The notes beneath the pieces were generated by a model that was not told the DNA's origin, searched no databases, and saw only the letters and a list, made by a program, of their open reading frames with translations. This document shows, piece by piece, positions 38,531 to 55,479 of a DNA stretch of 64,000 nucleotides (position 1 is the stretch's first letter; every line of letters begins with the position of its first letter). The translations under genes were made by a program, and so were the position numbers. Origin of the DNA: Nitrosomonadales bacterium (GTDB lineage: Bacteria > Pseudomonadota > Gammaproteobacteria > Burkholderiales > Gallionellaceae); assembly GCA_016218415.1 (NCBI GenBank), contig JACRED010000001.1:62001-126000 (forward strand), written 5' to 3'.

Positions 38531-39136
38531 TTAAGTTTGCCCGCGTGCAATCTCCATTCCCGCATTTCCCAGCCGCCAGTAGCGCGTGTCCGGTGAAATC
38601 ATTTCCGCGAAACTGTTCGCCGCGACGAAGTTTGTAGGCGGCGCATCACAGCGCGCAAGGCGCAGCCAATCGCTGCGGCGGGGCGCTTCTTCGACCCAGC
38701 CCAGCAGCATGCCGTCCGGCCCGGCCTGCTGCGCGGCCAGCAGCGCCAGGCTCGCCGGGTCGCGCGCCATCACGATGCCGGCATCGCCCTGCCAGTTCAA
38801 TGCCGACGCCAGCGCCGGCAATAGCTGGCCGGTCTGGCTCTGCAAAAAGCTGAACGGCATCGGCAGGTCTTGCCGGTTCTGCTCCAGCACCTGGCCTATT
38901 GCAGTGACGGCGCCGCGCAGGCTGCACAAGCGCAGCACGACATCTTCGGGCAGCGCGGATTCCTGCGCGGCATCCAGACAATCGAGCGCGCCGTAGAGCG
39001 CGAGTTCGGCGAGCATGCCGATGCGGCGGGGACGTTGCCCGAGGCGGGCGGCGAGCCGTTCGCGCCAATCGTCGGGCAGGTCGCCGTGGCGTGTTCTGCC
39101 GGTGATTTGCCAGGTGCTGTTATTCACATATGCCAT
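38531..39136 (-). CDS. Degenerate beta-ketoacyl synthase-like protein
   Basis: A 201-residue protein resembling the N-terminal ketoacyl-synthase-like domain (PF13723 type) found beside ketosynthases in aryl-polyene-like clusters. The family pattern is seen in MLAELALYGALDCL, ALPEDVVLRLCSLRGAVTA, and MPFSFLQSQTGQLLPAL. The catalytic Cys, His and His/Asn of true ketosynthases cannot be placed, so it is probably a non-catalytic partner or chain-length factor. It starts 3 bp after the stop of the active-type ketosynthase and is last in the operon. Confidence 0.68.
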   Translation of the reverse strand: MAYVNNSTWQITGRTRHGDLPDDWRERLAARLGQRPRRIGMLAELALYGALDCLDAAQESALPEDVVLRLCSLRGAVTAIGQVLEQNRQDLPMPFSFLQSQTGQLLPALASALNWQGDAGIVMARDPASLALLAAQQAGPDGMLLGWVEEAPRRSDWLRLARCDAPPTNFVAANSFAEMISPDTRYWRLGNAGMEIARGQT

Positions 39137-39139
39137 CTT

Positions 39140-40204
39140 TCAGCGTGCCGCTGTATCTTCCAGTATCACGGCGGCATACCCGCCGCCGAAGCCGAGTATG
39201 TCCGCCAGAACGTAGCGCGGCGCTGGCGGTTTGCTTTGCGCCAATGCGTGGCTGAGTTCGCGATCAGGCGGATAGTCGGGCTGCGGCCAGATACCGGTTT
39301 CCAGACACGCGGTCAGCAATGCGATCTCCGCCGCGCCCGATGCGCCCAGCGTGTGTCCTGTCGCCGCCTTGAATGTGACCAGCGGCGGCATCGTGTCGAA
39401 GACCTGCGCCATGCCGGACAATTCGTTCGCATCGTTCATCGGGCTGCCCGCCGCCTGCAATTTGATCAGGCCGATGTCGGCCGGTTTGAGTCCGCTGTCG
39501 GCCAGCGCCTGTACGCACATGCGCGCAACGGTCTGCGGGATCGCGCCGGTCGGATCGCGGCCGTCGACGATGTTGCTGCCGCCGCACACGCGCCAGCGTG
39601 CCGGGCGGCCGGATAAGCGCAGCACCGCGACCGCCTCGCCCAGCGTGATCCCGTCACGATCCGCGCCTAGCGGTTCGGGTTGTTTATGTGTCAGCAATTG
39701 CATCGCCGCAAAACCCGAGATCGAAAACCGGTTGGGCAGCTCGATGCCCAGCACCACGGCATCGTCCACCGCCCCGGAACCGATCAACCTGTAAGCCATC
39801 AGCAGCGCTTGCAGCGATGAGGTGCAGGCGCTGGAAACAACATATACCGGACCTTCCCAATTCAACCATGCGGCGACTGCATCGGAAAATTCAAGGCTGT
39901 CTCCAGAGCAATCCCCATCGATTTCAATCGCGCCTATGCCCAGCGAGGAAGATGCGATAAACAGCGGCGCATGGCGGGTTGACGACAACCCCGATTCTTC
40001 AGCTGCCGAGCAAAGCAGTTGTTGCGCGCGTTTGCGCCAGTCCTGTTCGGGGTGATCGATGGTGTAGCAGGGCCAGTCCGTCCCGCCCGGCAAAAGCACG
40101 CGCTGCGGTGCAACGCCTCCGGCGGCAAGCGTCGTGAGCGCCTGCGGCAGATTCTCGCCCAGCGCCGAGATCAGGCTACGCCCGCGCAAATAAACCGGCC
40201 TCAT
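39140..40204 (-). CDS. Beta-ketoacyl-ACP synthase (KAS I/II-like) with altered active site
   Basis: Thiolase-fold condensing enzyme of 354 aa. The start at 40204 overlaps the ACP stop (ATGA). Nucleophile C127 is in VSSACTSSLQ; the second catalytic His is H284 in ATGHTLGASG. The first His, normally in an HGTxTPxxD motif, is replaced: the equivalent stretch reads KLQAAGSPMND, with Q250 where His is expected. C-terminal LGFGGGYAAVIL is typical. The enzyme probably extends or primes a chain on the neighbouring ACP, with unusual decarboxylation chemistry if the replacement is real. Confidence 0.82.
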   Translation of the reverse strand: MRPVYLRGRSLISALGENLPQALTTLAAGGVAPQRVLLPGGTDWPCYTIDHPEQDWRKRAQQLLCSAAEESGLSSTRHAPLFIASSSLGIGAIEIDGDCSGDSLEFSDAVAAWLNWEGPVYVVSSACTSSLQALLMAYRLIGSGAVDDAVVLGIELPNRFSISGFAAMQLLTHKQPEPLGADRDGITLGEAVAVLRLSGRPARWRVCGGSNIVDGRDPTGAIPQTVARMCVQALADSGLKPADIGLIKLQAAGSPMNDANELSGMAQVFDTMPPLVTFKAATGHTLGASGAAEIALLTACLETGIWPQPDYPPDRELSHALAQSKPPAPRYVLADILGFGGGYAAVILEDTAAR

Positions 40205-40470
40205 TTTCGGCGTGCGGCCAGGTATTCGGCGAGATGGGCAACGCTGACCAGGGCGCGCCGGGTTTCCTTGCTGTCGGGCATGCGCACCCCGTAGCGCTTC
40301 TGGATTTCCATCGAGATCTGCAATGCGTCGAGTGAGTCCAGCATCAGCCTGGCCTCCGGGCCAAACAACGTTTCGTCGTCGGACAGGCCGCCCGGCGGCG
40401 CGGCCTTCTCGACGGCTTCGAGGATCATGTTTTTCAGTTCGGTCCTGAACGCTTCGGGATTGTTGCTCAT
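40201..40470 (-). CDS. Acyl carrier protein
   Basis: An 89-residue carrier protein with the 4'-phosphopantetheine site S46 in LMLDSLDALQ, preceded by DDETLFG. Its sequence differs from housekeeping AcpP, consistent with a pathway-specific carrier (the DarC role in dialkylresorcinol clusters). The ATG overlaps the permease stop (TGATG), and its stop overlaps the ketosynthase start (ATGA). It presumably carries chains among the two ketosynthases and the BtrH-like acyltransferase. Confidence 0.88.
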   Translation of the reverse strand: MSNNPEAFRTELKNMILEAVEKAAPPGGLSDDETLFGPEARLMLDSLDALQISMEIQKRYGVRMPDSKETRRALVSVAHLAEYLAARRK

Positions 40471-41669
40471 CAACCGACCCTGCGGCGGAATAACAGCACG
40501 GCAATGACGATCATCAGCGCGGCAAAGCCCATCAGCTTGGCGGCAGGCAGCAGCACGCCGCCGATATCGCTGCCGCGCAGCAATACCGCGAGCATGCCCT
40601 CCAGCCCCCAGTTCATCGGCGAAAATTCCGCGATGCGTTGCATCACGTCGGGCATCACAAACTTGGGCACCATTACGCCGCCGATCGCGGCCATCAGGAT
40701 GTTGACTACCGGCCCTATCGTGGCCGCCTGCGCCTGGGTGCGCACCAGGCTTGCCAGCGCGAGCGCAAGACCGATCGCCGCCATGCTCACGCCCAGCAGC
40801 ACCAGCAGCAGCGCGCCCGAATGTATGCCCGCCAGCGACAGCGCGTCCCCGCCCAGCAGCGGCATCAGCCACACGCCCACCGCCAGCATCAGCGTGGCTT
40901 GCAGTCCGTTGATCACGAGATAGGGCAGGGCTTTGGACCAGAGCATCATGCTGACCGGCACGCCCAGACTGGCCAGTCTGGCCAGCGCGCCGCATTGCCG
41001 TTCCTGCAGAAACAGATTGGACAGCGAAGCGACCACAAAGAACATGCCGAACACCAGCCAGGCCGGGACATTCTGCTGCACGGCGGTGGGGCGCGATCCG
41101 GCGGCCAGACGTTCGGCGTCGACCAGCGTCTGCGCGGAGACCGTCACATCGTCATTGGGAATCCTGTCTGCGGCGGACGGTCTGCCGCGCGGCGCTCCCT
41201 GTGCCATGCGGCTCGCGGTCAACAGCGCGCGGGCGCGCATCTCGCTGGCGATCATCACCAGCTCCGCCTTGTTCGCCGCGAACACGCCGCCCTCCAGGCC
41301 GGGATCGGTAACCAGCTTGAGCCGTATCCCGCTGTCCATTGGCCGGCTCGCCAGCGCAGCTGAAAAACCTTTTTCGATGACCAGTGCATAGCTCAATTTT
41401 CCGCTCTGCACCTTGTTCGGCCAGTTTGTGCTATCCGGCTGCGCCTTGCCATGGCGCTTCTCCCACTCGTTCACCAGCGTGTCGGCCATGGTTCCGCTGT
41501 CGCGGTTTTCAATCGCATAGGGCAGGGCCTTGACCGGCGGGTCGTAGACATCTTTCAGCGCGAGCGACATGATGATGATGAACAGCGCAGGCATCAGGAA
41601 CAGCGCGGCCATGCCATGCACGTCGCGTATCAGGGCCAGCAGTTCTTTTTTGATCAGGGCGATCAGCAT
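40470..41669 (-). CDS. ABC-2 type transporter permease
   Basis: A 399-residue membrane protein: one N-terminal helix (about 20-42), a large extracytoplasmic domain (about 43-175) and five C-terminal helices (about 185-395), the layout of ABC-2 exporters of the NatB/YhiH type. It contains LFLQERQCGALARLASLGV, which fits the coupling loop. It is adjacent to a matching ATPase (2 bp gap) and translationally coupled to the ACP. It probably exports the product of this operon; the substrate is not known. Confidence 0.87.
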   Translation of the reverse strand: MLIALIKKELLALIRDVHGMAALFLMPALFIIIMSLALKDVYDPPVKALPYAIENRDSGTMADTLVNEWEKRHGKAQPDSTNWPNKVQSGKLSYALVIEKGFSAALASRPMDSGIRLKLVTDPGLEGGVFAANKAELVMIASEMRARALLTASRMAQGAPRGRPSAADRIPNDDVTVSAQTLVDAERLAAGSRPTAVQQNVPAWLVFGMFFVVASLSNLFLQERQCGALARLASLGVPVSMMLWSKALPYLVINGLQATLMLAVGVWLMPLLGGDALSLAGIHSGALLLVLLGVSMAAIGLALALASLVRTQAQAATIGPVVNILMAAIGGVMVPKFVMPDVMQRIAEFSPMNWGLEGMLAVLLRGSDIGGVLLPAAKLMGFAALMIVIAVLLFRRRVG

Positions 41670-41671
41670 GG

Positions 41672-42592
41672 TCAGTCCCGCAACGGGCGGCGCGTCAGCG
41701 TCATAAAGAGCTGTTCCAGATTGCCGCGACCGAACTCGGCATGGCGGATCCGTCCGCCCGCAGCTTCCACCGCGGCCAGCAGCGCGACGGGCGTTTGCCC
41801 GGCGGCAAGGGTCACCAGACTATCCCCGCCGGCTTGCGCCACCGTGCCGAAACAATCCAGCAGCGCGTTCAGCGCTGTGTCGCTTAAGCCCGCCACGCCG
41901 AGGCGAACCTGGACGATGACGCCGCCCAGCAACTCGTCCAGCGTGCCGTCGCGCAGCACCGTGCCGTCGTCGATGATGACCACGCGGTCGGCGATCGCCT
42001 CGATCTCTTCCATGTAATGCGAAGTGTAAATGATGGCCGCCCCGTTCCGTGCGAGTGTCTTGACCGCATCGAGCAGGAAAGCGCGCGATTGCGGATCGAC
42101 GCCGACGGTGGGTTCGTCGAGCAGAATAATCTCCGGTTCCGGCAGCAGCGCGATGGCCAGATTCAAGCGGCGTTTCAAACCGCCGGAAAGCCTTTCCGCG
42201 CGCGTCTTCGCAAAGCGCTCCAGCTGCGCGAAAGCCAGGCATGCGGCGATGCGCTGCAACTTGCGCGAGCCGCCCAGCCCGCCCGCCGAGGCAAAGCACG
42301 CCAGGTTTTCCAGAACCGTCAGCATCGGATAGAACGCATAATCCTGCGGAGCCACCGCGATGCGCGCGGGCGTGTTGCGGCGGATGACCGCAAGCGGCTG
42401 ACCGTCTATGGCGATGTCGCCGTGCTGCACCGGCAACAGGCCGGACAAGTGCGAGATGAGGGTGGTCTTGCCCGCGCCGTTCGGCCCCAGCAGTCCGAGT
42501 ATCCGCCCGCGCGCCGCATCGAGCGACACACCCTCCAGCGCGGGTTTGTCCGCGCCCGGATAGCGGAAGGATAAGTCCCTGATTGCCAGCAT
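41672..42592 (-). CDS. ABC transporter ATP-binding protein
   Basis: ATPase subunit of 306 aa with Walker A GPNGAGKTT, Q loop in APQDYAFY, signature LSGGLKRRL, Walker B IILLDEPTVGVD and H loop in IIYTSHYMEE. The tail after about residue 215 is the C-terminal domain seen in drug/lipid-type ABC-2 ATPases. The ATG overlaps the stop of the BtrH-like gene (TGATG). It pairs with the permease downstream. Confidence 0.92.
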   Translation of the reverse strand: MLAIRDLSFRYPGADKPALEGVSLDAARGRILGLLGPNGAGKTTLISHLSGLLPVQHGDIAIDGQPLAVIRRNTPARIAVAPQDYAFYPMLTVLENLACFASAGGLGGSRKLQRIAACLAFAQLERFAKTRAERLSGGLKRRLNLAIALLPEPEIILLDEPTVGVDPQSRAFLLDAVKTLARNGAAIIYTSHYMEEIEAIADRVVIIDDGTVLRDGTLDELLGGVIVQVRLGVAGLSDTALNALLDCFGTVAQAGGDSLVTLAAGQTPVALLAAVEAAGGRIRHAEFGRGNLEQLFMTLTRRPLRD

Positions 42593-43584
42593 CAGGCCAC
42601 GGCGCGCTTCAGCGCCCTGAAAAATTCGGCCTCATTTTCGGCCTGCCCGCGCAGCATGCCGGCCAGCAGCGCCGGGTCGAATGCTTCGCGGCCCTTGATC
42701 ATGCGCACCGCCTTCAGGCCGAATGCGCGCCAGCCGTCGCCGATCTCGTTCATGCGCTCGGCCAGCGCGCGCAATTCCGGCAGCCCGGCGATGTCGGCCG
42801 CCTCCTGCAGGAAGGAGGCGTACAGGAAACGGAAACCCGCGCCGCCGGTGCCGATCTCCTCCTGCATGCGCACGATGTGGCCGACGTAGTTGAGGCCATA
42901 CTCATCGGGCTTCAGCCTCGCCACCTTGCCGGCCAGCATGCGCATGCCGCGCACGCCGACCAGCGGGATAGGCCCGAGCATGATGCGCGCGGTTTTCCGG
43001 ATCGCCTTGCGGACCGCGTCGGGCGTGACTTCGGTATTGCCTACGGTTTCCGGGTAATACAGCAGGCCTTTCGGCGCCAGCACGCCCTTGGCGAAACGCG
43101 CGCGCTGCAAGTCTGCGGCGGCGCAGCGCTGCGGCTCCTCGGCGACCGGGTCGCTGATCAGATATTCGTCGCCCTGCTTGCCGTACACCAGCAGGTTGTG
43201 CGCGTTGAAATGAAAGCGCATGTCCTCGGGAAAGTAGGGCAGCCAGAACACCGAAGTTTGCAGTCCGACCACCTTGCCCTGTGCCAGTAATTCATCCAGG
43301 CGCCGCATCCCCGCCGCCGGATCGCGGAAAGTTTCAAAGCGGAAGCGTGTCCGGAACGGCTTGGCCATGCCCCGCAGGATGAACCTGGGCGGCATGCGAT
43401 AGGCGATCAGCGGAAAACCGGTAAGCTTGACGAAAGGCAGGTAGGCGAATGACAGCGCCGATGACAGGCCGAAGGCCATCGCCTCGGAAATCGCCGCGCC
43501 GTGGTGTGACATCAGCGCGGCGGCGACCCCGCTCTCGCAATGTGCCGCATGGCGATGCCGGAATTGTTCGTTGATCATGTTCAT
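42592..43584 (-). CDS. BtrH-like acyltransferase
   Basis: A 330-residue protein with a BtrH-type N-terminal domain (cysteine-peptidase-like fold) and a DUF4872-like C-terminal part. The start at 43584 overlaps the previous stop (ATGA). The putative nucleophile is C16 in HAAHCESGVAAAL, and the partner His is in FNAHNLLVYG. The founding member BtrH transfers an acyl chain from an acyl carrier protein to an aminoglycoside in butirosin synthesis. Here, beside an ACP and ketosynthases, it likely releases or transfers the finished chain; the acceptor is unknown. Confidence 0.8.
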   Translation of the reverse strand: MNMINEQFRHRHAAHCESGVAAALMSHHGAAISEAMAFGLSSALSFAYLPFVKLTGFPLIAYRMPPRFILRGMAKPFRTRFRFETFRDPAAGMRRLDELLAQGKVVGLQTSVFWLPYFPEDMRFHFNAHNLLVYGKQGDEYLISDPVAEEPQRCAAADLQRARFAKGVLAPKGLLYYPETVGNTEVTPDAVRKAIRKTARIMLGPIPLVGVRGMRMLAGKVARLKPDEYGLNYVGHIVRMQEEIGTGGAGFRFLYASFLQEAADIAGLPELRALAERMNEIGDGWRAFGLKAVRMIKGREAFDPALLAGMLRGQAENEAEFFRALKRAVA

Positions 43585-43976
43585 GGCAGCTGGCGCAATT
43601 GCCCGGCGCTGATGCCCAGCGCGTCGGCGTATCGTTCCAGGATATGCTGCGGCAGGCGGGCGAATTTTTCGGGACGGAAGTGGCGGCGGATGCGCCATTG
43701 CCAGATCCCGGTGACCTGCGACAGCAGCGGCACATCCATGCGTTTGGCGCACATCCAGTATTCCAGCGGCGCGGTTATTCCGGCAAGCGCGCGCGCCCTG
43801 GCGTCGTCCGCCAGCGCGTTCATCCGGGCGATGGCCTGAACCGTCACCGTCTCGTCCACCTCGCCGCCGCGCGAGGGCACCAGCACCATGCGCCCGTCCG
43901 CGTCTCTGGCATACAACGCCTTGCGGTGCCCCCCGAGCGTCCGGTTGCCTTCCTGGGGGACGGCATCCACATCCAT
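43581..43976 (-). CDS. Uncharacterised protein of the resorcinol-like operon
   Basis: A 131-residue soluble protein with no recognised domain. The N-terminal part is polar with short beta-like stretches (RKALYARDADGRMVLVPS); the C-terminal two thirds look helical, including a basic WQWRIRRHFRPEKFARLP stretch and a last helix like a small helix-turn-helix. No catalytic motif and no signal peptide. Overlapping starts and stops on both sides (TGATG with the KASIII gene, ATGA with the BtrH-like gene) tie it firmly to the pathway. It could be a cyclase, adaptor or regulator; nothing decides between these. Confidence 0.75.
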   Translation of the reverse strand: MDVDAVPQEGNRTLGGHRKALYARDADGRMVLVPSRGGEVDETVTVQAIARMNALADDARARALAGITAPLEYWMCAKRMDVPLLSQVTGIWQWRIRRHFRPEKFARLPQHILERYADALGISAGQLRQLP

Positions 43977-45109
43977 CAGACCGCCTCCATGAAAATGAAG
44001 CCGCTGGAGAAGCGCCCGCTTTCCGGTATGTACATCAGCAACTTGTGCCCTTTCCTGATGCGCCCGGAACGGAACAGCTCATCCAGCATGATGTAGGGCG
44101 AGGCCGAACCGGTGTTGCCCTTCCCGGTCAGGTTGGTGAACCAGTTCTCGCGGGGAATATCCAGCCCGGCTGCGGCCACGCCGGCGGCAACCGGCTCGGC
44201 AAAATAATTGGACGAGATGTGCGGCAGGAACCAGTCTATGCGTTGCGCGCCCAGATTGTGTTTGTCAGACAGTATTTTCAGCGGGTCGATCAATGTGGCG
44301 CGTATGACATGTTCATTGAGCAGGCGCACGTCCTGTTTGACCACGAAGATGGATTTGTTCGCCCATTCTTCCGGGGTAAAACATTGCCAGCCGGTGAGCG
44401 ACTGGTCGGGGTTTTTTTCCGCGCCCGCGTACATGCAGGTCGGCAGTTCATGGGCCGCAGACGACAGTTCCACCCACTTCACTTTCAGGCTGAGCGGTCC
44501 GCTGGGCTGGTTCTCCAGCAATACCGCACCCGCGCCATCGGACAGCATCCAGCGCAGGAAATCCTTTTCGAATGCGATCTCCGGACTTTCTTCCAGCTCG
44601 CGCACTCTGTGTTCGGATTCGGCCTGGTAATTGCGCCCGCGCAGCATCGGCGAGGGCATCTCGGACGCAACCGCCACCGCGCGTGCGGTATCGCCCGCGC
44701 TCACGGACAGCCACGCGTGCTTGAACGCCGCGGCACCCGCCACACACACGCCCGATAGCGACACGACTTCAAGGCGCGGCCAACCGAGTTCGCCGTGCAC
44801 CATCACCCCGTGCCCCGGCAGCAACTGGTCGGGATGCGAGGTGGCTGCGGCAAGGCAGCCTATCCCGCTCAACTCGCCCAGCGCGCGCACCGCCTGCGCC
44901 GCCATCTCGGCGTTGCTCATCACCGGTTCTCCGGTGACGCGGTCCAGCGCATAGTGGCGGCTGAGGATGCCATTGCTGCGCAGCACGATGCGGCGCGCCC
45001 TGGACGGGCGCCCGCCGACCATGCCCAGCACGTTCTCGATCTCGTCATTGCCCACTGCTTCCAGCGGCAAGAAGGATGAGGTCCTGGTCAGAAATACATC
45101 AATTCCCAT
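43976..45109 (-). CDS. 3-oxoacyl-ACP synthase III family protein (DarB-like)
   Basis: Thiolase-fold KASIII-type enzyme, 377 aa. The Cys-His-Asn triad is complete: C122 in LSGVCVAGA, H297 in FLPHISSNYF and N332 in GKGNTGSA. In dialkylresorcinol pathways the DarB ketosynthase joins two beta-keto chains and drives ring closure; the company of a DarA-like gene supports that role here. It overlaps the DarA-like gene by 11 bp and the following gene by one base. Confidence 0.87.
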   Translation of the reverse strand: MGIDVFLTRTSSFLPLEAVGNDEIENVLGMVGGRPSRARRIVLRSNGILSRHYALDRVTGEPVMSNAEMAAQAVRALGELSGIGCLAAATSHPDQLLPGHGVMVHGELGWPRLEVVSLSGVCVAGAAAFKHAWLSVSAGDTARAVAVASEMPSPMLRGRNYQAESEHRVRELEESPEIAFEKDFLRWMLSDGAGAVLLENQPSGPLSLKVKWVELSSAAHELPTCMYAGAEKNPDQSLTGWQCFTPEEWANKSIFVVKQDVRLLNEHVIRATLIDPLKILSDKHNLGAQRIDWFLPHISSNYFAEPVAAGVAAAGLDIPRENWFTNLTGKGNTGSASPYIMLDELFRSGRIRKGHKLLMYIPESGRFSSGFIFMEAV

Positions 45110-46133
45110 ACAAACTCATCCTCTCGGTACCCGAACCCGATGGCGCATCGAACTGCCGCTTCAATGCCGCAAAACGCCTGTGCATCAATGGCCGCAGCAG
45201 TGCCTGTATCAGCAGGCTTAACGGCACCACGGTCAAGATCAGGGTAATCAAAAAAATCACGTATAAAACCAGAAAGGGGCGGCGGCGCTTTTGTCCCGGC
45301 CCGCCGACACTGCGCAGCAGTTTACCCCATAGGAAAAAGCTCCGTGTCGCGGCCTTTTCGCTGGGCAGCAGATGCGGGTCGGAATCCACAGCCTTCAGGC
45401 CGGACAGCAAGGGAGCATTGCCTTGCTCCTGATTCTTTGCCAGCGCGTCGCGCAAAGCCAGACCAAAACGCCGCGCCTGCTGTATGGCCTGCCCGGTTAC
45501 GCCCGCCGGCGGCAGCGCCTTGAGCACCTGCCGCCTGCCGGTCCACATCCATAACGGCGTGGTCAGCAGGCTCGCCATGGTCGGGCTGGGATCGACCAAT
45601 ACCACGTTGTCCAGCAAACGCGCTCCGCAATCGCCGAGCAACGCTTTCATTTTCTCCTGCGCCAGCATCCACATATTGCGGCACGCAATCACCGTCACCA
45701 CGGGTTTGCCCGCCAGCATGCGAGCAGCGACCGGGTGTCTCAGAAAGGCCGTGACCGGAAGGGAAGGCGCCAGAAACCAGACCTGGTAGGGCAGGATGAC
45801 CAGATCAAACTCTTCATCACCGGACAGCGAGAGCGGTTGCAGGGACGGCGGCACCAGATGTGCCGATTCCGGAAAAGCATCCAGAAAACGGAAAAATGTC
45901 CACGGGAACGGATAGGGATGCTCGGGGCGCAGCAGCTCGACATGTACTGAAATCGCCGGGTCGCTTTGCAGCGGTTCGATGATGCGCCTGGTGATTTCCG
46001 CCAATTGTCCGGTCTGTGAATAAAGGGGAACCAGCACGCGTTTGACCGGGCGTATCTCCGGCGACTCAGTTGTATTCAGTGTAACCACAGGTTCGACAAC
46101 GCCGGATTCCATAATTGAGCCGGATTCTATCAT
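45099..46133 (-). CDS. DarA-like dialkylresorcinol-condensing family protein
   Basis: A 344-residue protein with a flavodoxin-like N-terminal two thirds (VLVPLYSQTGQLAEI loop at about 33-47, then DLVILPYQVWFLAPSLP) and a C-terminal hydrophobic helix (about 285-312), so it is probably membrane-tethered. It resembles proteins annotated as dialkylresorcinol-condensing enzyme DarA, which in characterised systems aromatises the ring formed by DarB. The start at 46133 or 46112; neither has a clear ribosome site. First gene of the nine-gene operon, 172 bp after mlaB. Confidence 0.75.
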   Translation of the reverse strand: MIESGSIMESGVVEPVVTLNTTESPEIRPVKRVLVPLYSQTGQLAEITRRIIEPLQSDPAISVHVELLRPEHPYPFPWTFFRFLDAFPESAHLVPPSLQPLSLSGDEEFDLVILPYQVWFLAPSLPVTAFLRHPVAARMLAGKPVVTVIACRNMWMLAQEKMKALLGDCGARLLDNVVLVDPSPTMASLLTTPLWMWTGRRQVLKALPPAGVTGQAIQQARRFGLALRDALAKNQEQGNAPLLSGLKAVDSDPHLLPSEKAATRSFFLWGKLLRSVGGPGQKRRRPFLVLYVIFLITLILTVVPLSLLIQALLRPLMHRRFAALKRQFDAPSGSGTERMSLYGN

Positions 46134-46305: not shown

Positions 46306-46593
46306 TCAATCGTCGTGCAACGGCAATAATTCATCCACGCCGTACAAGCGCGCCAGACTGAGCAGATCGGCAGGCCAGCCCACCACGCGCAAATCGTGCT
46401 GGCCGCGTTGCGCGGCCCGTTTCCAGCCCAGCAACATGCTGATCGCCGCGGAATCGACCGCCTCAACCCCGGAAAAATCTACCTGCAAGTCGCCGCGGCT
46501 GAGGTGCTGCAAGCCTGTTTCAAACAATGCGGGGACGGTTTCTATGGTCAGGCGGCCCTGCGCCGCGATTTGCGCTGTGTCCGATGAACTCAC
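46306..46593 (-). CDS. mlaB: STAS-domain protein MlaB
   Basis: A 95-residue STAS domain that binds the ATPase MlaF and is needed for assembly and activity of the MlaFEDB complex. The family motif around the conserved Ser/Thr is VDSAAISMLLGW. GTG start overlapping the mlaC stop (GTGA). Last of the mlaFEDCB operon. Confidence 0.9.
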   Translation of the reverse strand: MSSSDTAQIAAQGRLTIETVPALFETGLQHLSRGDLQVDFSGVEAVDSAAISMLLGWKRAAQRGQHDLRVVGWPADLLSLARLYGVDELLPLHDD

Positions 46594-47213
46594 TTGGCCT
46601 CTGCCTTGTGCAATGCCGCGTTGGCATTCTTGTCGGACAGGGTTTTGATCAGGCCGTCGATCCCGCTCTCCTGGATTTGCGAGGCGAACGTGCCGCGATA
46701 ATTCATCACCATGCTGACCCCTTCGATGTAGATATCGAAAACCTTCCAGCTGTCCGCATTCTTCCTCATTTCATAATTCACCGGAATGGCGGGTGTGCCG
46801 GGCTTGCTGATGGTGGTCTGTACCGTGACCTCGGTCGCATCATCGGCCATTTTCAGCGGCTTCACCTCGATGATCTGGTCACGGTATACACTGAAGACCT
46901 TGGTATAGGTGCGTACCAGCATGTTGCGGAACTCTCTGGTCAGCGCCTGCCTTTGTTCGGGTGTGGCAGTGCGCCAGTATTTGCCCACGGCCAGCTGGGT
47001 CATACGCTCAAAATCAAAATGGGGCAATACCTTGGCATCAACCAGCGCGAGTGTTTTTTGCAGGTCGCCCGCCTGGATATCCTTGTCCGCCTTGATGACG
47101 GCAACAACGTCCTTGACGGTGGTTTTGATCAGCGCATCCGGCGCGACGATTTCGGCCTGTGCAACACCGATTGCGCACAACAGTCCGGCAATCACTCCAA
47201 ACAGGTTCTTCAT
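46590..47213 (-). CDS. mlaC: Periplasmic phospholipid-binding protein MlaC
   Basis: A 207-residue periplasmic carrier with a signal peptide cut near AQA-EI. It shuttles phospholipid between the outer-membrane MlaA complex and the inner-membrane MlaFEDB complex. Family features are PHFDFERMTQLAVGKYWR, the LVRTYTKVFS stretch and DIYIEGVSMVMNYR. It is 17 bp downstream of mlaD. No mlaA is present in the window. Confidence 0.95.
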   Translation of the reverse strand: MKNLFGVIAGLLCAIGVAQAEIVAPDALIKTTVKDVVAVIKADKDIQAGDLQKTLALVDAKVLPHFDFERMTQLAVGKYWRTATPEQRQALTREFRNMLVRTYTKVFSVYRDQIIEVKPLKMADDATEVTVQTTISKPGTPAIPVNYEMRKNADSWKVFDIYIEGVSMVMNYRGTFASQIQESGIDGLIKTLSDKNANAALHKAEAK

Positions 47214-47229
47214 GGGCTACTTTCCTCGA

Positions 47230-47694
47230 TTATTTGGCCGGTTCTTCCGCCTTGTTGTAAATAAACTTGCCGATCAAATCTTCCAGCACCACGGCCGACT
47301 GCGTCTTTTTGATCTGCTCCCCGTCCTTGAGCATGTCGGTATCGCCGCCAGGGATCAGTCCGATATATTGCTCCCCCAGCAAGCCTGAAGTCAGGATGTT
47401 GGCGAAGGTGTCCTTGGGGAATTGATAGCGTTTGTCCAGGCTCATCACCACTTTCGCCTCATATCGTTCCGTATCCAGCGTGATTTCGGTCACGCGTCCC
47501 ACCAGCACCCCCGCGCTTTTGATGGACGCCTTGGGCTTCAGCCCGCCGATATTGGAAAAATACGCCTGCACCCGATACGACTCGGACACGTTGTACGTGC
47601 TCAGGTTCCCGACCTTCATCGCCAGCATCACCAGTGCGGCGATACCCGCCACCACAAACAAGCCCACCCAAAGATCAACAGTCGTGCGTTCCAT
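47230..47694 (-). CDS. mlaD: MCE-domain protein MlaD
   Basis: A 154-residue inner-membrane-anchored MCE protein: one helix (about 7-27), then the MCE domain with YFSNIGGLKPKASIKSAGV and the C-terminal LLGEQYIGLIPGG segment. Hexameric MlaD forms the periplasmic lipid channel of the complex. Coupled to mlaE by a 3-bp gap. Confidence 0.96.
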   Translation of the reverse strand: MERTTVDLWVGLFVVAGIAALVMLAMKVGNLSTYNVSESYRVQAYFSNIGGLKPKASIKSAGVLVGRVTEITLDTERYEAKVVMSLDKRYQFPKDTFANILTSGLLGEQYIGLIPGGDTDMLKDGEQIKKTQSAVVLEDLIGKFIYNKAEEPAK

Positions 47695-47697
47695 AAC

Positions 47698-48486
47698 TCA
47701 CTTCCCTCCGAACATCATTGCAGTCAAAATAAAATCCAGCATCAGGATCGCCAGCGACGAGGTCACCACGGTGCGCGTGGTCGCACCCGAGACGCCTTCC
47801 GCAGTCGGCGGCGCATCATAGCCCTCGAACAGGGCGATCACAGTCACCGCCGTGCCGAACACGAAACTCTTGATCACGCCGTTCAGGATATCCTCGCGGA
47901 AATCCACCGCCGCCTGCATCTGCGACCAGAACGACCCCTCGTCGACGCCGATCTGCACCACACCGACGAAATAGCCGCCGAATATTCCCATCGCGCTGAA
48001 CAGCGCGGCCAGCAGCGGCATCGAGATCACGCCCGCCCAGAAACGCGGCGCGACGATGCGCGCGATCGGGTTCACCGCCATCATTTCCATCGCGGAAATC
48101 TGCTCGGTGGCTTTCATCAGGCCGATTTCCGCCGTCATCGCCGAGCCTGCACGGCTGGCGAACAGCAGCGCGGCCAGCACCGGCCCCAGCTCGCGCACCA
48201 GACTCAGCGCCACTAGGGAGCCCAGTGCCGATTCCGATCCGTATCGCTTGAGCGTCTCGTAGCCCTGCAACCCAAGCACCATGCCGACGAACATCCCAGC
48301 CACCAGGATAATAATGAGCGACATGACCCCTGACGAGAACAGCTCTTTGATAATCAGGTGGAAACGCCGGAAGCCGCTGCCCGAATACAGTATTGTCAGA
48401 AAAAAGAAGCGCGTGGCCAAACCGATGCGCCATACCGCATTGACCACCTTGTGTCCGATTCCCGCAAAAGCTTTTTTAATTGGCAT
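47698..48486 (-). CDS. mlaE: Lipid ABC transporter permease MlaE
   Basis: Polytopic permease of 262 aa with about five helices. It has the MlaE family motifs GMVLGLQGYETL, LVRELGPVLAALLFASRAGSAMTAEIG (abridged: RELGP and GSAMTAEIG) and GVISMPLLA. It starts 3 bp after mlaF and works with MlaF as the motor of phospholipid transport at the inner membrane. Confidence 0.96.
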   Translation of the reverse strand: MPIKKAFAGIGHKVVNAVWRIGLATRFFFLTILYSGSGFRRFHLIIKELFSSGVMSLIIILVAGMFVGMVLGLQGYETLKRYGSESALGSLVALSLVRELGPVLAALLFASRAGSAMTAEIGLMKATEQISAMEMMAVNPIARIVAPRFWAGVISMPLLAALFSAMGIFGGYFVGVVQIGVDEGSFWSQMQAAVDFREDILNGVIKSFVFGTAVTVIALFEGYDAPPTAEGVSGATTRTVVTSSLAILMLDFILTAMMFGGK

Positions 48487-48489
48487 GGG

Positions 48490-49305
48490 TCAGGCCTGCA
48501 AACTCAAATCATTGCGGTAATCCCCGCCGGGATAATGGAACGGCACCGGCCCGTCCATCTCGCCGTGGACAAACTGGCGCACAAAATCCTGATCCGATGC
48601 GCGGATCTGGTCGGGCGTGCCTTCCGCCTTGATCACGCCATTGGCCATGAAATAAACGTAGTCCACGATCTTCAGCGATTCCTGTATGTCGTGCGTCACG
48701 ATGATAGAGGTCGCGCCCAGCGCATCGTTCAGACGGCGGATCAGGTCGCCCACCACCGACAATGAAATCGGGTCCAGTCCGGCGAACGGCTCGTCGTACA
48801 TGATCAGCATCGGATCGAGCGCCACGGCACGCGCCAGTGCCACCCGCCGCGCCATCCCGCCGGACAGTTCGGAGGGCATCAAATCATGCGTGCCGCGCAG
48901 GCCCACCGCATGCAGCTTCATCAGCACCATGTCGCGTATCAACTCTTCCGGCAGGTCGGTGTGCTCGCGCATCTGGAACGCCACATTGTCGTACACCGAC
49001 ATATCGGTGAACAGCGCGCCGAACTGGAACAGCATGCCCATCTTGCGGCGCATCCGGTACAGGCCGTCCTGATCGAGCTCATGAATTATCTGTCCATCCA
49101 TCCTGATATGGCCGCTGGTCGGCTTGAGCGCCCCCCCGATATGCCGCAGCAGCGTGGTCTTGCCGCAGCCGCTCAAACCCATGATGGCAATCAGCTTCCC
49201 CTTCGGGAAGGTCATGTTGATGCCCTCCAGAACCGGGCGTTTATCGTAGGCAAAATTAAGGTCGCGGATTTCGACCAGGGCTGCCGGAGATAAGGATGGG
49301 GACAA
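48490..49305 (-). CDS. mlaF: Lipid ABC transporter ATP-binding protein MlaF
   Basis: ATPase of the Mla complex, with Walker A GLSGCGKTT, signature LSGGMARRV, Walker B LIMYDEPFAGLD and the H loop in IIVTHDI. The open frame extends to an ATG at 49452, but that would add about 49 residues without family character; the TTG at 49305 gives 271 aa, close to E. coli MlaF (269), with AGG nearby. A TTG start is therefore preferred. First of mlaFEDCB, divergent from the pilus response regulator. Confidence 0.93.
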   Translation of the reverse strand: MSPSLSPAALVEIRDLNFAYDKRPVLEGINMTFPKGKLIAIMGLSGCGKTTLLRHIGGALKPTSGHIRMDGQIIHELDQDGLYRMRRKMGMLFQFGALFTDMSVYDNVAFQMREHTDLPEELIRDMVLMKLHAVGLRGTHDLMPSELSGGMARRVALARAVALDPMLIMYDEPFAGLDPISLSVVGDLIRRLNDALGATSIIVTHDIQESLKIVDYVYFMANGVIKAEGTPDQIRASDQDFVRQFVHGEMDGPVPFHYPGGDYRNDLSLQA

Positions 49306-49393
49306 GATTGGAACCTGTAAAATCGGGAGGACGCATTCTAAACCACTGCAGCATAAATCCCCAACTAATTGACCGCAAGGTATATATACCCTA

Positions 49394-49422
49394 TTGAGAT
49401 TACGTGCACTTGCCGTTATGCT
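49394..49422 (+). promoter_or_regulatory. Candidate sigma-70 promoter of the pilus response regulator
   Basis: TTGAGA (49394-49399) and TATGCT (49417-49422), 17-bp spacer; five of six and four of six consensus matches. The start point would lie near 49429, downstream of the first in-frame ATG at 49369, which argues for the TTG start at 49456. Confidence 0.5.
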
Positions 49423-49455
49423 CCGCATCCAATTGCCATTGGTAACACGCACAAA

Positions 49456-50868
49456 TTGAGTTCCGTTTCTACACTGCCCAGCCTGTTAATCGTTGATGAC
49501 GACCCGCTTATTCGCGAGGGATTGGCGGTCTCGTTCAGGAATCATTTCACGATACACCAGGCTGAATCGCGTGCCGCGGCGATAGAATTGTTGCGCCAGT
49601 TGCCGCTTCCGCCGCAGTTGGCGCTGATCGACCTGGGCTTGCCCCCGGTCCCTCACCGTCCGGACGAGGGCTTTCACCTGATAGCGGAGCTGTTGGCACA
49701 TTCGCCCAAGATCAGGATTTTCGTCCTGTCCGGGCAGGACGAGCATAGCAATGCGCGCCATGCGCGTTCGCTGGGGGCAATCGACTTCATCGCCAAGCCC
49801 TGTGCACCGGAAAAGATCAGGGAGTACCTTGATGGCGCGCTGAAGGTTCAGGAGCGCGAGCCCGGCGATGCGGGCGGCGACAAACAGTCGCTCGGCATTG
49901 TGGGACAAAGCGCCGCAATACAGGCGCTGCGCAGCCAGATCGTGATGTATGCCACGATCCCTTTTCCGGTGCTCATCGAGGGGGAGTCGGGTTGCGGCAA
50001 GGAACTGGTTGCTGCTGCAATACAAAAACTGGCCGGCAATCCCGGCTCGCCGTTCAAGGCGCTCAACTGTGCCGCGATTGCGCCCACGCTGATCGAGCCC
50101 ACCCTGTTCGGTTACAGCAAAGGGTCATTCACCGGCGCGACCAGCGCGCAAGCCGGATTTTTTGAGGAGGCATCGGATGGTACACTGTTCCTCGACGAGG
50201 TCGGCGAGTTGCCGCTGGAGTTGCAGACCAAGCTGCTGCGCGTGCTGGAGAACGGCGAATATCAGCGCGTCGGCGAAACCGCGACGCGCAAAAGCCGCGC
50301 GCGCATCATCGCCGCGACCAACCGCAACCTGCGCGACATGGTCAGGACGGGAACATTCCGCGGCGACCTTTACCACCGCCTGAACGTGTTTTCCATCTCC
50401 GTCCCGCCACTGCGTGAACTGGGGCCGGACAAGCTGGTGCTGCTTAACCATTTTCGCGCCTATTACGCGCAGCAAATCAGGCAAAAGCCCTTTGAGTTGC
50501 ATCCCGAAGCGCTGCTGCGCTGGGAGCAATACAGCTTTCCCGGCAATACCCGCGAGTTGCGCAACATCGTGATCCGGCTGGCAACCAAATATCCCGGGCA
50601 AACAGTCGGCGCGGCGCAATTGCAGGACGAATTCGACCCGGTGGAATTGCCCGCATCACCTTCCGGCTCCTCGCCGGATTCGATAAAGCAGCTGCTTCAA
50701 CAGGGCAGCTTCAACCTGGACCGGCACCTGCTCGAGCAGGAAGGCTACTATATCGCCGCAGCGCTGGACATCGCCTCGGGCAACATCAGCGAAGCCGCCA
50801 AACTGCTCGGCATCAACCGTACCACACTGCATAGCCGTATCAGTGCGCACGAGAAATCCAACGCATAG
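49456..50868 (+). CDS. Sigma-54-type response regulator (NtrC-like)
   Basis: Transcriptional activator of 470 aa: receiver domain (acidic pair in LIVDDDP, phospho-Asp in ALIDLGLP, Lys in IAKPC), AAA+ domain with Walker A GESGCGKE, sigma-54 contact loop GSFTGAT (usual GAFTGA), Walker B LFLDEVGELP, and a C-terminal Fis-type helix-turn-helix (AAKLLGINRTTLHSRI). The start is taken as TTG at 49456 because the upstream ATG (49369) probably precedes the transcription start and the residues between are not domain-like. It is 10 bp before the mshM-like gene and may control the pilus genes; no -24/-12 site was found near them. Confidence 0.88.
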   Translation: MSSVSTLPSLLIVDDDPLIREGLAVSFRNHFTIHQAESRAAAIELLRQLPLPPQLALIDLGLPPVPHRPDEGFHLIAELLAHSPKIRIFVLSGQDEHSNARHARSLGAIDFIAKPCAPEKIREYLDGALKVQEREPGDAGGDKQSLGIVGQSAAIQALRSQIVMYATIPFPVLIEGESGCGKELVAAAIQKLAGNPGSPFKALNCAAIAPTLIEPTLFGYSKGSFTGATSAQAGFFEEASDGTLFLDEVGELPLELQTKLLRVLENGEYQRVGETATRKSRARIIAATNRNLRDMVRTGTFRGDLYHRLNVFSISVPPLRELGPDKLVLLNHFRAYYAQQIRQKPFELHPEALLRWEQYSFPGNTRELRNIVIRLATKYPGQTVGAAQLQDEFDPVELPASPSGSSPDSIKQLLQQGSFNLDRHLLEQEGYYIAAALDIASGNISEAAKLLGINRTTLHSRISAHEKSNA

Positions 50869-50877
50869 GGCCAATTT

Positions 50878-52428
50878 ATGTATCTAGAACACTTCGGTCT
50901 CAACGAGCCGCCATTCCGGATCACCCCGGTCACGGTATTCTTCTTTTCCGGCGCCAATCGCGGCGAAATCCTCGATGCGCTGATCTACTCCATCAGCGAG
51001 GTCGAAGGCATCATCAAGGTCAGCGGCGAAGTGGGCAGCGGCAAAACCATGTTGTGCCGGATGCTGCTTGAAAAACTCCCGCAGCATATCGAACCCATCT
51101 ATCTGGCCAATCCCAGCCTGTCGCGCGAAGAGATGCTGTACGCGATCGCCGACGGCTTGGGCCTGAACATCAAGGATGAGCGCGTCGGCATCATCATGCA
51201 GAACATCCAGAACAAGCTGGAGGCCAAGGCCAGGGAGGGAAAGCGCATCGTCGTGCTGGTGGATGAAGCCCATGCCATGCCGCTGGACACGCTGGAAGAA
51301 TTGCGCCTGCTGTACAACCTGCAGGTCGGCAACGCCAAGCTGATGCAGATTGTCCTGTTCGGGCAGCCGGAGTTGAACGCCAAGCTGGAGCAGCCCAACA
51401 TGCGCCAGCTCAAGGACCGCATCGCGCATCATTTCCACATGCAACCGCTGTCGCGCGGCGTCCTTGAGAATTACCTGATGTTCCGGATGCGCGCGGCCGG
51501 TTACCACGGGCCGAACATTTTTTCCGAGGAGGCCATCAAGCTTATTGCGGACGCCTCCAACGGGTTGATGCGACGCGTCAATATCCTTGCGGACAAATCG
51601 CTGCTGGCGGCATTCGTGGAAGACACGCATAACGTTGAAGCGCGTCACGTGAAGGCGGCGATGCGCGACAGCGAGCTGGGCTCCGATCGTCCGGAATCGG
51701 GCAAAAAAATGTTGCTGGGGATCGCGACTGCCGCATTAGTGCTGGCGGGTTTGATCGCATGGTATTTCATGGACAAGCCGCATACGTCTCCGGCGACAGT
51801 GCCGGCATCCGTCGCGCCCGCATTGCCGGCACAGCCTGTTGCGTCGCAGCCAGACAGTGCTGCCCCGGCAGCGACGGGTGCTACGGCAAACCAACCCGCC
51901 GCCACGATGGCGGTGGATGCTAGCCCGGCACCGCAAGCTGCCGCCGTTGGCGCGGGAACACAACCTGCGACGAGTCCAGCGCCGAAACCGGAACTTGTGG
52001 CTGCGGCAAATGTACCGCTTGCCCAGCCCGGTCTGGAAGGGGGCAAACCCAAGGATGCCGTCCCTCATCCATCCCAACCCACGTCTGCACCGCCAGCGCA
52101 CAGCGATGCGGCAACCGGTAAACACAGCCTGTACGAGCAACGCCTGGAAGCGGGCAAGCAATTGGTCGCCCAGAAGAAAGCCGTCGCCAGCATCCAGCTG
52201 TTCTATAACGAAGAGATCAAGCCGGAGCGTATCGAAGGTTTCCTGAAACGCGCCGATGGACTGGGCAAACTTGCCGAAATCTATCTGCTGCCGGCCAAAT
52301 TCGGCAGCAAGGACGGCGTGCGCGTGCTCTACGGCGCATATCCGTCGGTAGACGCGGCACGCAGCGCAACCAGGGATTTGCCGCCGCGATATCAAAATGC
52401 TTTCGCCACATCCATCTACATATTTTGA
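50878..52428 (+). CDS. mshM: MshM/ExeA-like AAA ATPase with SPOR-like C-terminus
   Basis: A 516-residue inner-membrane ATPase of the ExeA/MshM family. It starts YLEHFGLNEPPF, typical of the family; Walker A is GEVGSGKT (50-57) and Walker B VVLVDEAHAM. A transmembrane helix (about 278-298) is followed by a long Ala/Pro-rich periplasmic linker (about 300-415) and a C-terminal SPOR-like domain (about 440-516). It may organise the secretin and peptidoglycan during pilus assembly, as ExeA does in type II secretion. The SPOR-like end is longer than in plain MshM proteins. Confidence 0.85.
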   Translation: MYLEHFGLNEPPFRITPVTVFFFSGANRGEILDALIYSISEVEGIIKVSGEVGSGKTMLCRMLLEKLPQHIEPIYLANPSLSREEMLYAIADGLGLNIKDERVGIIMQNIQNKLEAKAREGKRIVVLVDEAHAMPLDTLEELRLLYNLQVGNAKLMQIVLFGQPELNAKLEQPNMRQLKDRIAHHFHMQPLSRGVLENYLMFRMRAAGYHGPNIFSEEAIKLIADASNGLMRRVNILADKSLLAAFVEDTHNVEARHVKAAMRDSELGSDRPESGKKMLLGIATAALVLAGLIAWYFMDKPHTSPATVPASVAPALPAQPVASQPDSAAPAATGATANQPAATMAVDASPAPQAAAVGAGTQPATSPAPKPELVAAANVPLAQPGLEGGKPKDAVPHPSQPTSAPPAHSDAATGKHSLYEQRLEAGKQLVAQKKAVASIQLFYNEEIKPERIEGFLKRADGLGKLAEIYLLPAKFGSKDGVRVLYGAYPSVDAARSATRDLPPRYQNAFATSIYIF

Positions 52429-52546
52429 AAATCGGCCGGGGTGATGGATGCGGGCGGTTCCAATGGCACTGTTCGGCCCCGATATTTCCGAGTTTTTGCG
52501 CGTGCCGGGTTTCTAGCAATCCAGATAAAGTTATCCTGATAAAGTG

Positions 52547-52575
52547 TTGAGCAATAGCGGTAAAGCTGCTAGGCT
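52547..52575 (+). promoter_or_regulatory. Possible promoter before mshL
   Basis: TTGAGC (52547-52552) and TAGGCT (52570-52575) with a 17-bp spacer, inside the 175-bp gap between the mshM-like gene and mshL. The -10 match is weak. Confidence 0.3.
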
Positions 52576-52603
52576 ACAGCCAAAATAACGAGAGGGAAGA
52601 GGC

Positions 52604-54376
52604 ATGCGTTTGTGCAATAAAGTTTTTCTCTGTGTTATCGGAGTGATGCTTGCAAGTTGCGGCACCAAGCCAATCCAGCCTTCCGACAAACACATACAGC
52701 GGCCCGACGCTGAGCCTGGAATAGAAAACGCCATTCCGCAGCCGATCACCAGCAGCGTCGTATTGTCGCCACCCAAGCCGGCCGGCAAAGTCGCGACCTA
52801 CAGCGTGATCGTCTCCAATGTGCCCGCGCAGGAGATTTTGTTCGCGCTGGCGCGTGACGCAAAGATCAATCTCGACATCCACCCCGGCATCGCCGGAACG
52901 GTGACGATCAACGCCGTGAACCAGACGCTGCCGCAAATCCTCTCGCGTATCGCCAGGCAGGTGGACATGCGCTACGAACTCGACAACGGCACGCTGACGG
53001 TGATGCCGGACTCCCCCTACCTGCATAACTACAAAATTGATTATGTGAACATGACGCGTGATTCGGACGGCGCGATCTCCGGCTCGACCCAGGTCGGGTC
53101 GGGTTCGCCGGGCGGCGCCACGGGCAGTTCGGGCAGCAGTTCATCGTTGGCCATCAAAAATACCTCCAGGAATCACTTCTGGGAGACCTTGACCCAGAAC
53201 ATCAAGGACATTCTGCGCGAGACCGACAAGGTCCTGCCCTCGGGCTCCAGCGAAGTGGTGGTACAGCAAACCAATGCGGGCAGCAGTACTGGCACGGGCG
53301 CGCAATCAGCCGGCAAGAAATCGGCCGCCAAAGTCGGCATTGAAAACAGCCCGAACCCGGTCAGCATCGAGGAGGAGGGCGTGACTGTTACGCGGCGCAA
53401 CACTTTCCGCGAGGCTGCCTCGGTCATCGCCAACCCGGAGAACGGCATCATCACGGTACGCGCCACCGGTAAACAGCACGAAAAAATTCAGGAGTTCATC
53501 GACCAGGTCATGAGCAATGCGCGGCGTCAGGTGCTGATCGAGGCAACAGTTGTGGAAGTGCGCCTGAGCAACGAGTACCAGCAGGGTATCAACTGGTCGG
53601 CGTTGCGACTCGGTGGGACAGGCTTCCAGCTGACCCAGGCGGGTTCGGCGGGTTTATCCTCCGCCAATACCGGCAGCATGTTCGTGCTGGATTATGCCAA
53701 CCCGCTTTCCAAATTGGGCAACCTGGCTGCGCAGGTTTCCCTGCTGGAATCGTTCGGCAATGTAAAGGTGTTATCCAGCCCAAAACTGAGCGTGATGAAC
53801 AACCAGACCGCCATTCTGCGCGTGGTGGATAACCTGGCATATTTCACTATCGATGTGAAAATCGAATCGGCCACTTCTACCAGTCCCGGAACGACAACCT
53901 ACACATCCAACCTTAACACGGCCTCCATCGGTTTTACGATGAGCGTCACCCCGCAGATCAATGACAACGACACCGTGCTGCTGAATATGCGCCCCTCGAT
54001 TTCGCGCTTGCTCAGTTACGTCAATGATCCGAATCCTGTTCTGGCTGCAGCCAAGGTGGTCAGCAGAATACCGCAAACCCAATCCCGCGAAATGGAATCG
54101 GTGCTGAAAATTGAAAACAACCAGATCGCCGTGATGGGCGGTTTGATGCAGGACAGCGTGAACAATCTCACCGATGAAGTGCCGTTCCTCGCCAGCATCC
54201 CCTTGCTTGGCAACCTGTTCAAGCAACGCAACGACAAAACCGAGAAAACCGAACTGGTGATCTTCCTGCGTCCTATCGTCATCAAGAATGCCGACGTGAG
54301 TGCTGATTTCAGGGAGTTCCGCAACAGCTTGCCGGATGAAAATTTCTTCAAAGAATCCGCCAGCGGCAAGCACTAG
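52604..54376 (+). CDS. mshL: MSHA pilus secretin MshL
   Basis: Outer-membrane secretin of 590 aa through which the pilus exits. Lipobox LASC (C19); an STN-type domain (about 70-130) with INLDIHPGIAGTVTIN, a Gly/Ser-rich linker, an N-type domain, and the secretin core (about 290-570) with VLIEATVVEVRLSNEYQQG, VKVLSSPKLSVMNNQTA and the C-terminal VPFLASIPLLGNLF motif. GAGGGAAGAGG precedes the ATG. Homologues are PilQ and GspD; the neighbours fix it as MshL. Confidence 0.93.
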   Translation: MRLCNKVFLCVIGVMLASCGTKPIQPSDKHIQRPDAEPGIENAIPQPITSSVVLSPPKPAGKVATYSVIVSNVPAQEILFALARDAKINLDIHPGIAGTVTINAVNQTLPQILSRIARQVDMRYELDNGTLTVMPDSPYLHNYKIDYVNMTRDSDGAISGSTQVGSGSPGGATGSSGSSSSLAIKNTSRNHFWETLTQNIKDILRETDKVLPSGSSEVVVQQTNAGSSTGTGAQSAGKKSAAKVGIENSPNPVSIEEEGVTVTRRNTFREAASVIANPENGIITVRATGKQHEKIQEFIDQVMSNARRQVLIEATVVEVRLSNEYQQGINWSALRLGGTGFQLTQAGSAGLSSANTGSMFVLDYANPLSKLGNLAAQVSLLESFGNVKVLSSPKLSVMNNQTAILRVVDNLAYFTIDVKIESATSTSPGTTTYTSNLNTASIGFTMSVTPQINDNDTVLLNMRPSISRLLSYVNDPNPVLAAAKVVSRIPQTQSREMESVLKIENNQIAVMGGLMQDSVNNLTDEVPFLASIPLLGNLFKQRNDKTEKTELVIFLRPIVIKNADVSADFREFRNSLPDENFFKESASGKH

Positions 54377-54387
54377 GAAATTCCGAT

Positions 54388-55476: not shown

Positions 55477-55479
55477 ATC

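Follow-up and report, generated by a model that had tools for sequence, protein, structure and literature searches.

The window analyzed here is a stretch of 64,000 nucleotides from a Nitrosomonadales bacterium of the family Gallionellaceae (contig JACRED010000001.1, positions 62,001 to 126,000), and the subject of this report is a putative dialkylresorcinol (DAR) operon within it, nine genes that all lie on the minus strand from window position 46133 down to 38531. A preliminary description of this DNA had listed nine tightly coupled genes, and all nine were confirmed; neighboring genes overlap by 11, 1, 4, 1, 1 and 4 bp or are separated by gaps of 2 and 3 bp, a spacing which is operon-like. 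From the upstream end, with lengths in amino acids (aa), they are:

45099..46133, minus strand: darA-like, DAR aromatase/condensing protein, 344 aa, placed by position and homologues
43976..45109, minus strand: darB, DAR cyclase of the ketoacyl-acyl carrier protein synthase III (KASIII) type, StlD/DarB family, 377 aa (NF005293)
43581..43976, minus strand: DarG-family protein, 131 aa, in the place of darD in Azoarcus (NF053536)
42592..43584, minus strand: BtrH-like acyltransferase, 330 aa, in the place of darE in Azoarcus, DarH in NCBIfam (NF053550)
41672..42592, minus strand: darF, ATP-binding cassette (ABC) transporter ATPase, 306 aa (PF00005, 108.8 bits)
40470..41669, minus strand: darI, ABC-2 type permease, 399 aa (PF12698, 117.5 bits)
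40201..40470, minus strand: darC, acyl carrier protein (ACP) with an LDSLD motif, 89 aa (PF00550, 25 bits, cut-off 20.8)
39140..40204, minus strand: darJ, ApeO-like ketosynthase (KS) with C-Q-K-H in place of C-H-K-H, 354 aa (profile and residue tally)
38531..39136, minus strand: darK, half-size, probably ApeC-like KS partner, 201 aa (AlphaFold2 (AF2) model and Foldseek)

The names follow the DAR locus of Azoarcus BH72 as given in PMC3949708: darA, darB, darD (hypothetical), darE (BtrH-like), darF (ABC ATPase), darG/darH, darI (permease), darC (ACP), darJ (KS) and darK (hypothetical). The DarG and DarH of NCBIfam correspond by position to darD and darE of that paper, in which darG is a prevent-host-death gene and darH a PilT-domain gene (PMC3949708).

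The assignment of DarB as a KASIII-type enzyme with a full Cys-His-Asn triad held up well. The protein scored 576 bits against the NCBIfam cut-off of 450 for StlD/DarB (NF005293), its closest solved structure is StlD (5gk0 and 5gk1; E 8.2e-127 for 5gk0), and the Cys, His and Asn of the three motifs, which we take to play the catalytic roles, stand in columns conserved to at least 90% (77 rows). At E 0.001, ACP_syn_III_C (PF08541) matched DarB and no other protein of the genome, the assembly of which is 85.9% complete; no second FabH-type gene was seen in that search, possibly owing to an assembly gap. The label of the first gene is drawn from other evidence: it occupies the position of Azoarcus darA and has homologues at that position in other loci, but it lacks a profile match above cut-off. 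Its matches on three Streptomyces plasmid records (H1-H3; about 31% identity) are annotated as hypothetical and were of no help in naming it.

The 131-aa protein, earlier listed as unknown, belongs to a described family (DarG_fam, NF053536; 156 bits, cut-off 70). An initial impression of a DNA-binding-like helix pattern at the end of this protein was given up once DarG_fam had matched. The BtrH-like label of the next protein was borne out by a score of 474 bits in DarH_acyl (NF053550, equivalog cut-off 300) together with matches to BtrH_N and DUF4872. Its residues C16, H125, H129 and D145 are invariant across all 81 rows, which is consistent with a thiol catalyst, and a phmmer search against solved structures gave no match up to E 1. 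Pfam cut-offs were passed for BtrH_N, DUF4872, ABC_tran, ABC2_membrane_3, PP-binding and both ketoacyl-synt domains of the KS; the LDSLD motif of the ACP is conserved in at least 90% of 65 rows.

The preliminary description had also remarked that genes of the standard pigment sets are absent. The operon itself is indeed without a ligase or a dehydratase, but a dehydratase, a ligase, a glycosyltransferase and a methyltransferase were found on two other contigs of the same genome, C46 and C31, and their apparent lack is therefore an effect of the window. C46 carries a chorismatase (PF21168, 132 bits, C46:4537-4905), inferred from its context to be of the XanB2 type, and an ApeC-like gene (PF13723). 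The order there is a tryptophan-halogenase-family enzyme, the chorismatase, MipA, an acyltransferase and a glycosyltransferase, followed on the opposite strand by a ketoreductase (KR), a 146-aa gene, the ApeC-like gene and a KS, and then by a PF01209 methyltransferase. On C31 lie a methyltransferase, a polysaccharide deacetylase, MMPL, LolA_3, Lip_A_acyltrans, a FabA-like dehydratase (26 bits, cut-off 23), an AMP-ligase, a protein without Pfam match and an ACP, which is the order of arcM-arcV without arcO. In both content and order the two loci resemble arcA-arcK and arcM-arcV, and the AMP-ligase, ACP, KR, KS and N-terminal-KS-type gene for a polyene are all present across them. In place of an ammonia lyase, for which no search was made, the chorismatase would serve as the source of a hydroxybenzoate starter. 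For the two dehydratases of the arcuflavin-type pathway (arcI and arcS), the candidates here are the FabA-like match on C31 and the 146-aa gene on C46. PF22818 (ApeI-like) had no match in the genome; neither had PF22817 (ApeP-like), a result which is uninformative since no control genome gave a match either.

The distribution of the operon was followed by a scan of genome contigs with the BtrH-like protein, which gave 308 confirmed stretches; the best 80 were kept, and as the search patterns came from the window protein, near relatives are favored. Several of the 80 fetched loci are short contigs, so that the following counts of gene order are lower bounds. The nine genes are consecutive in the window order in at least 21 of the 80 loci, the first eight in at least 34 and A-B-D-E in at least 74; the gene order is conserved beyond chance. 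At least two polyene-type matches, some of them weak, lie within the fetched stretch in 20 of the 80 loci, and the dar genes are directly flanked by polyene-type genes in L010, L014, L015 and L018. A second layout was seen in L012-L016 and L018, in which a polyene-type KS, chain length factor (CLF), dehydratase and KR are followed by C-J-K and then by A-B-D-E; no F-I pair lies downstream, with only weak F matches of 29-32% in L012 and L016. DarA-B-D-E homologues also occur in loci of Neisseria, Aggregatibacter, Rodentibacter and Actinobacillus (L057, L064, L066, L070, L072, L075-L078 and L085; in L064 the later genes only), several of which adjoin KS and KR matches.

Among 120 genomes of the family, DarH_acyl was above cut-off in 15 and the chorismatase was present in 27, all 15 being within the 27. 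The chorismatase is therefore found in 15 of 15 genomes with DarE (own genome included) versus 12 of 105 without it (one-sided Fisher test, 3.7e-12, kinship ignored; genome G132, with DarH_acyl at 21.5 bits and below cut-off, was counted among the 105). In 8 of the 15 the two genes share a contig, their starts being 8.6-20.7 kb apart. In an order-wide sample of 100 genomes DarH_acyl was found in two and the chorismatase in 12, both being present in those two (the genome studied here and one of the same family). Among the best 80 of the 308 stretches, the named isolate with the best match is Ferriphaselus sp. R-1 (80% in DarE), and other matches include metagenome-assembled genomes (MAGs) of Sideroxyarcus and Gallionella; the relatives are therefore likely to be iron oxidizers. 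Arcuflavin-type pigment genes are thereby placed in a minority of Gallionellaceae (15 of the 120 sampled). Such pathways can be split across loci, and clusters of this kind hence need to be read genome-wide.

Because the gene order is that of the published DAR locus, curated profile cut-offs were passed, two polyene loci are present in the genome and DarE co-occurs with the chorismatase, we consider the operon very probably to be the DAR half of an arcuflavin-type pigment pathway. It is a known kind of operon and largely ordinary, the DarJ substitution described below being the exception. Arcuflavin was proposed, from feeding experiments and mass spectrometry (MS), to be a xanthomonadin-like polyene ester-joined to DAR (PMC3949708). 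Judging from the cited papers and from the families involved, acyl chains, probably carried on DarC, would be condensed by DarB and aromatized by DarA to yield a 2,5-dialkylresorcinol. The genes on C46 and C31 would make a yellow, chorismate-derived aryl polyene on an ACP of their own, and the BtrH-like protein would move the polyene acyl group from that ACP to a resorcinol hydroxyl to give a flexirubin-like ester, as the BtrH family and the published ester suggest. DarF and DarI, together with MMPL and LolA from the polyene locus, may take part in exporting or positioning the pigment, and DarJ and DarK would act in the DAR branch as a KS paired with a half-size partner. The polyene is the likely donor, and the acyl group is probably accepted by the resorcinol itself. 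Of the earlier proposal that a resorcinol is assembled, joined to an unknown acceptor by acyl transfer and exported, the parts that concern DarA/DarB, the BtrH-like protein and the ABC transporter are well supported; the unknown acceptor is not upheld.

Several points weigh against this assignment. The pathway, product included, is predicted here from genes, and the window order A-B-D-E-F-I-C-J-K is the same as that of Azoarcus BH72 by order and annotation, not by sequence alignment. DarA gave no Pfam or NCBIfam match above cut-off (the sole Pfam match was DUF5671, 15.7 bits versus 28.4), and DarB fell below the narrower resorcinol_DarB model (446 bits versus a cut-off of 550). No Pfam match was obtained for the 146-aa gene that stands where the C46 dehydratase would be expected, neither arcF nor arcG nor arcL was found next to the C46 genes within the annotated 20 kb of that contig, and the genome assembly is incomplete, as stated above. 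The 12 family genomes with a chorismatase and no DarE count on the same side. The mutants published for Azoarcus are in arcK and arcT and none is in the dar genes, the link to DAR there resting on heterologous production and MS (PMC3949708).

An alternative is that a free dialkylresorcinol, a signal or antioxidant lipid, is exported by DarF and DarI, with a xanthomonadin-like pigment being produced separately by the polyene loci. The operon does carry its own transporter, and the DarE-less genomes with a chorismatase suggest that a polyene may be made without DAR; however, not one of the 120 genomes has an above-cut-off DarE without the chorismatase, a BtrH-like transferase requires both a donor and an acceptor, and Azoarcus extracts contained the hybrid with DAR not detected (PMC3949708). 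We therefore regard a free product as improbable. Even less credit, and very little indeed, can be given to the view of the preliminary description, that the operon builds a new class of lipid with an unknown acceptor. The lack of a ligase, dehydratase and reductase in the operon itself would fit that view, but a locus with an identical gene order and an assigned pathway has been published (PMC3949708), so that product and acceptor cannot be called undescribed, and the complementary polyene loci lie in the same genome.

The exception mentioned above concerns the last two genes. The profile of DarJ was built from alignment A2 (20 of 57 DarJ sequences, hand-picked, mostly without long upstream extensions); no NCBIfam cut-off was passed, and the top solved matches were 7f28_B and 6qsp_A. 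The latter entry is the ApeO-ApeC complex of Xenorhabdus doucetiae (PMC8358021), of which we take 7f28 to be the Acinetobacter counterpart. The DarJ of the window reads C-Q-K-H, with Gln at the first catalytic His, and so departs from the Cys-His-His with Lys pattern of the condensing KSs of the FabF/ApeO type; it is therefore filed as ApeO-like and not as a proven condensing enzyme. An acyltransferase function was considered from a match to NCBIfam AmcF, named an acyltransferase subunit (96 bits versus a cut-off of 325). AmcF-AmcG elongates and cyclizes, and AmcF retains its Cys (PMC10698177), so that there is no clean acyltransferase precedent for DarJ.

DarK, earlier called a degenerate ketosynthase, matched no family of Pfam or NCBIfam up to E 1. 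Its profile found only two chance-level matches among solved sequences, and its fold was therefore predicted. The AF2 model (pLDDT 89.8) was made from the 22-row alignment A1, hand-picked from 40 DarK sequences mostly without long upstream extensions. Its best Foldseek matches were 7f28_A (E 7.2e-6), 7f28_C (E 9.3e-6) and 6qsp_B, that is ApeC (E 4.0e-5), at TM-scores of 0.45-0.57, root-mean-square deviations of 5.9-8.8 and identities of 15-17%, with FabH-type chains close behind from E 8e-5. ApeC has one thiolase fold and is half the size of a KS (PMC8358021). DarK is probably an ApeC-like half-size partner of DarJ, and the earlier label is about right.

The Gln of DarJ is widely shared. DarJ reads QAAGSP where ArcK-type KSs read HGTGT or HGTAT (window 39140-40204; L089-L103). 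Earlier rows had mixed DarJ with other KSs, and in a recount limited to KS genes adjoining an ACP match, the position of the first FabF-type catalytic His holds Gln in the window and in 36 of 56 loci; the other 20 have His, and one of them has Tyr at the second His. Records of Gallionella, Rhizobacter and Zoogloea are among the Gln loci, as are Simiduia (L047) and a gammaproteobacterial MAG (L048); among those with His are records of Pasteurellaceae and of desulfobacteria, together with two Azoarcus MAGs (L056, L061) and Uliginosibacterium (L052). The variant is mainly, not strictly, betaproteobacterial. A genome search was run on all 15 genomes with DarE and on eight of the 12 that have a chorismatase only, residues being read on the 20 loci returned. 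DarJ scored at least 530 bits in 15 of 15 DarE genomes, and no score exceeded 141 bits in the eight others. Gln is present in all 15 Gallionellaceae DarJ (own genome included), and His is kept in five of five fetched ArcK-type KSs and in the ArcK-type KS of this genome. One TGA lies within the DarJ match in 4 of 15 loci (L094, L101, L102, L103), and the match translations of L097 and L103 contain one stop each.

The first catalytic His of FabF and FabB serves malonyl decarboxylation. The DarJ-DarK pair, in which Gln replaces this His, the Cys, Lys and second His are kept, and which tracks the DAR and not the polyene branch, may not carry out ordinary malonyl condensation. Its activity might be acyl transfer, by which it would load DarC, for instance, or pass a chain to DarB or the BtrH-like enzyme, a suggestion which we put forward only tentatively. 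If true, this would be a new role for a type II KS-CLF-like pair. The conserved change gives a concrete, testable question of enzymology. The substitution may be a new detail, as titles and abstract beginnings of the literature on the DarJ ketosynthase or on the aryl polyene ketosynthase chain length factor make no mention of it, subscription papers being mostly outside that scope.

Around the operon, a PF00144 beta-lactamase-family gene on the opposite strand ends at 38519, 11 bp from its 3' end. Mla-type lipid transport genes (ABC ATPase, MlaE, MlaD, MlaC and STAS; window 46306-49452) lie on the same strand 172 bp upstream of darA, and window 49369-57216 holds a sigma-54 response regulator, an AAA ATPase, a secretin and a T2SSE/MshEN ATPase, by appearance an MSHA-type pilus set.

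Compared with ApeO-ApeC (PMC8358021; 6qsp), DarJ and DarK share the arrangement of a full-length KS adjoining a half-size partner, which in DarK probably has a single thiolase fold; they differ in that ApeO sequences keep the first catalytic His, which DarJ lacks, and in the low identity, only about 15%, between DarK and ApeC. The likeness to Azoarcus extends beyond the gene order. There too the polyene genes lie in two further loci, likewise physically unlinked (PMC3949708), one with a halogenase, chorismatase, outer membrane protein, acyltransferase, glycosyltransferase, KR, N-terminal-KS-type gene and KS, and the other with a methyltransferase, deacetylase, exporter, LolA, acyltransferase, dehydratase, AMP-ligase and ACP. 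The differences are that the prevent-host-death/PilT pair of Azoarcus (azo0287-0288, of toxin-antitoxin type) is absent from the window operon, and that a PF01209 methyltransferase adjoins the KS on C46. Co-occurrence of DAR and polyene clusters has been described in Dechloromonas, Variovorax and Sideroxydans, including Sideroxydans lithotrophicus ES-1 (PMC3949708). In the flexirubin system, expression of Chitinophaga pinensis darB/darA in a heterologous host yielded DAR, and Flavobacterium johnsoniae was without its pigment when darB was mutated (PMC3992019). The clusters of these two species share with the present genome darA/darB and an aryl polyene esterified with DAR, the latter predicted here; their starter is supplied via tyrosine ammonia-lyase and 4-coumarate-CoA ligase (PMC3992019), whereas here genes for a chorismatase and an AMP-ligase are found.

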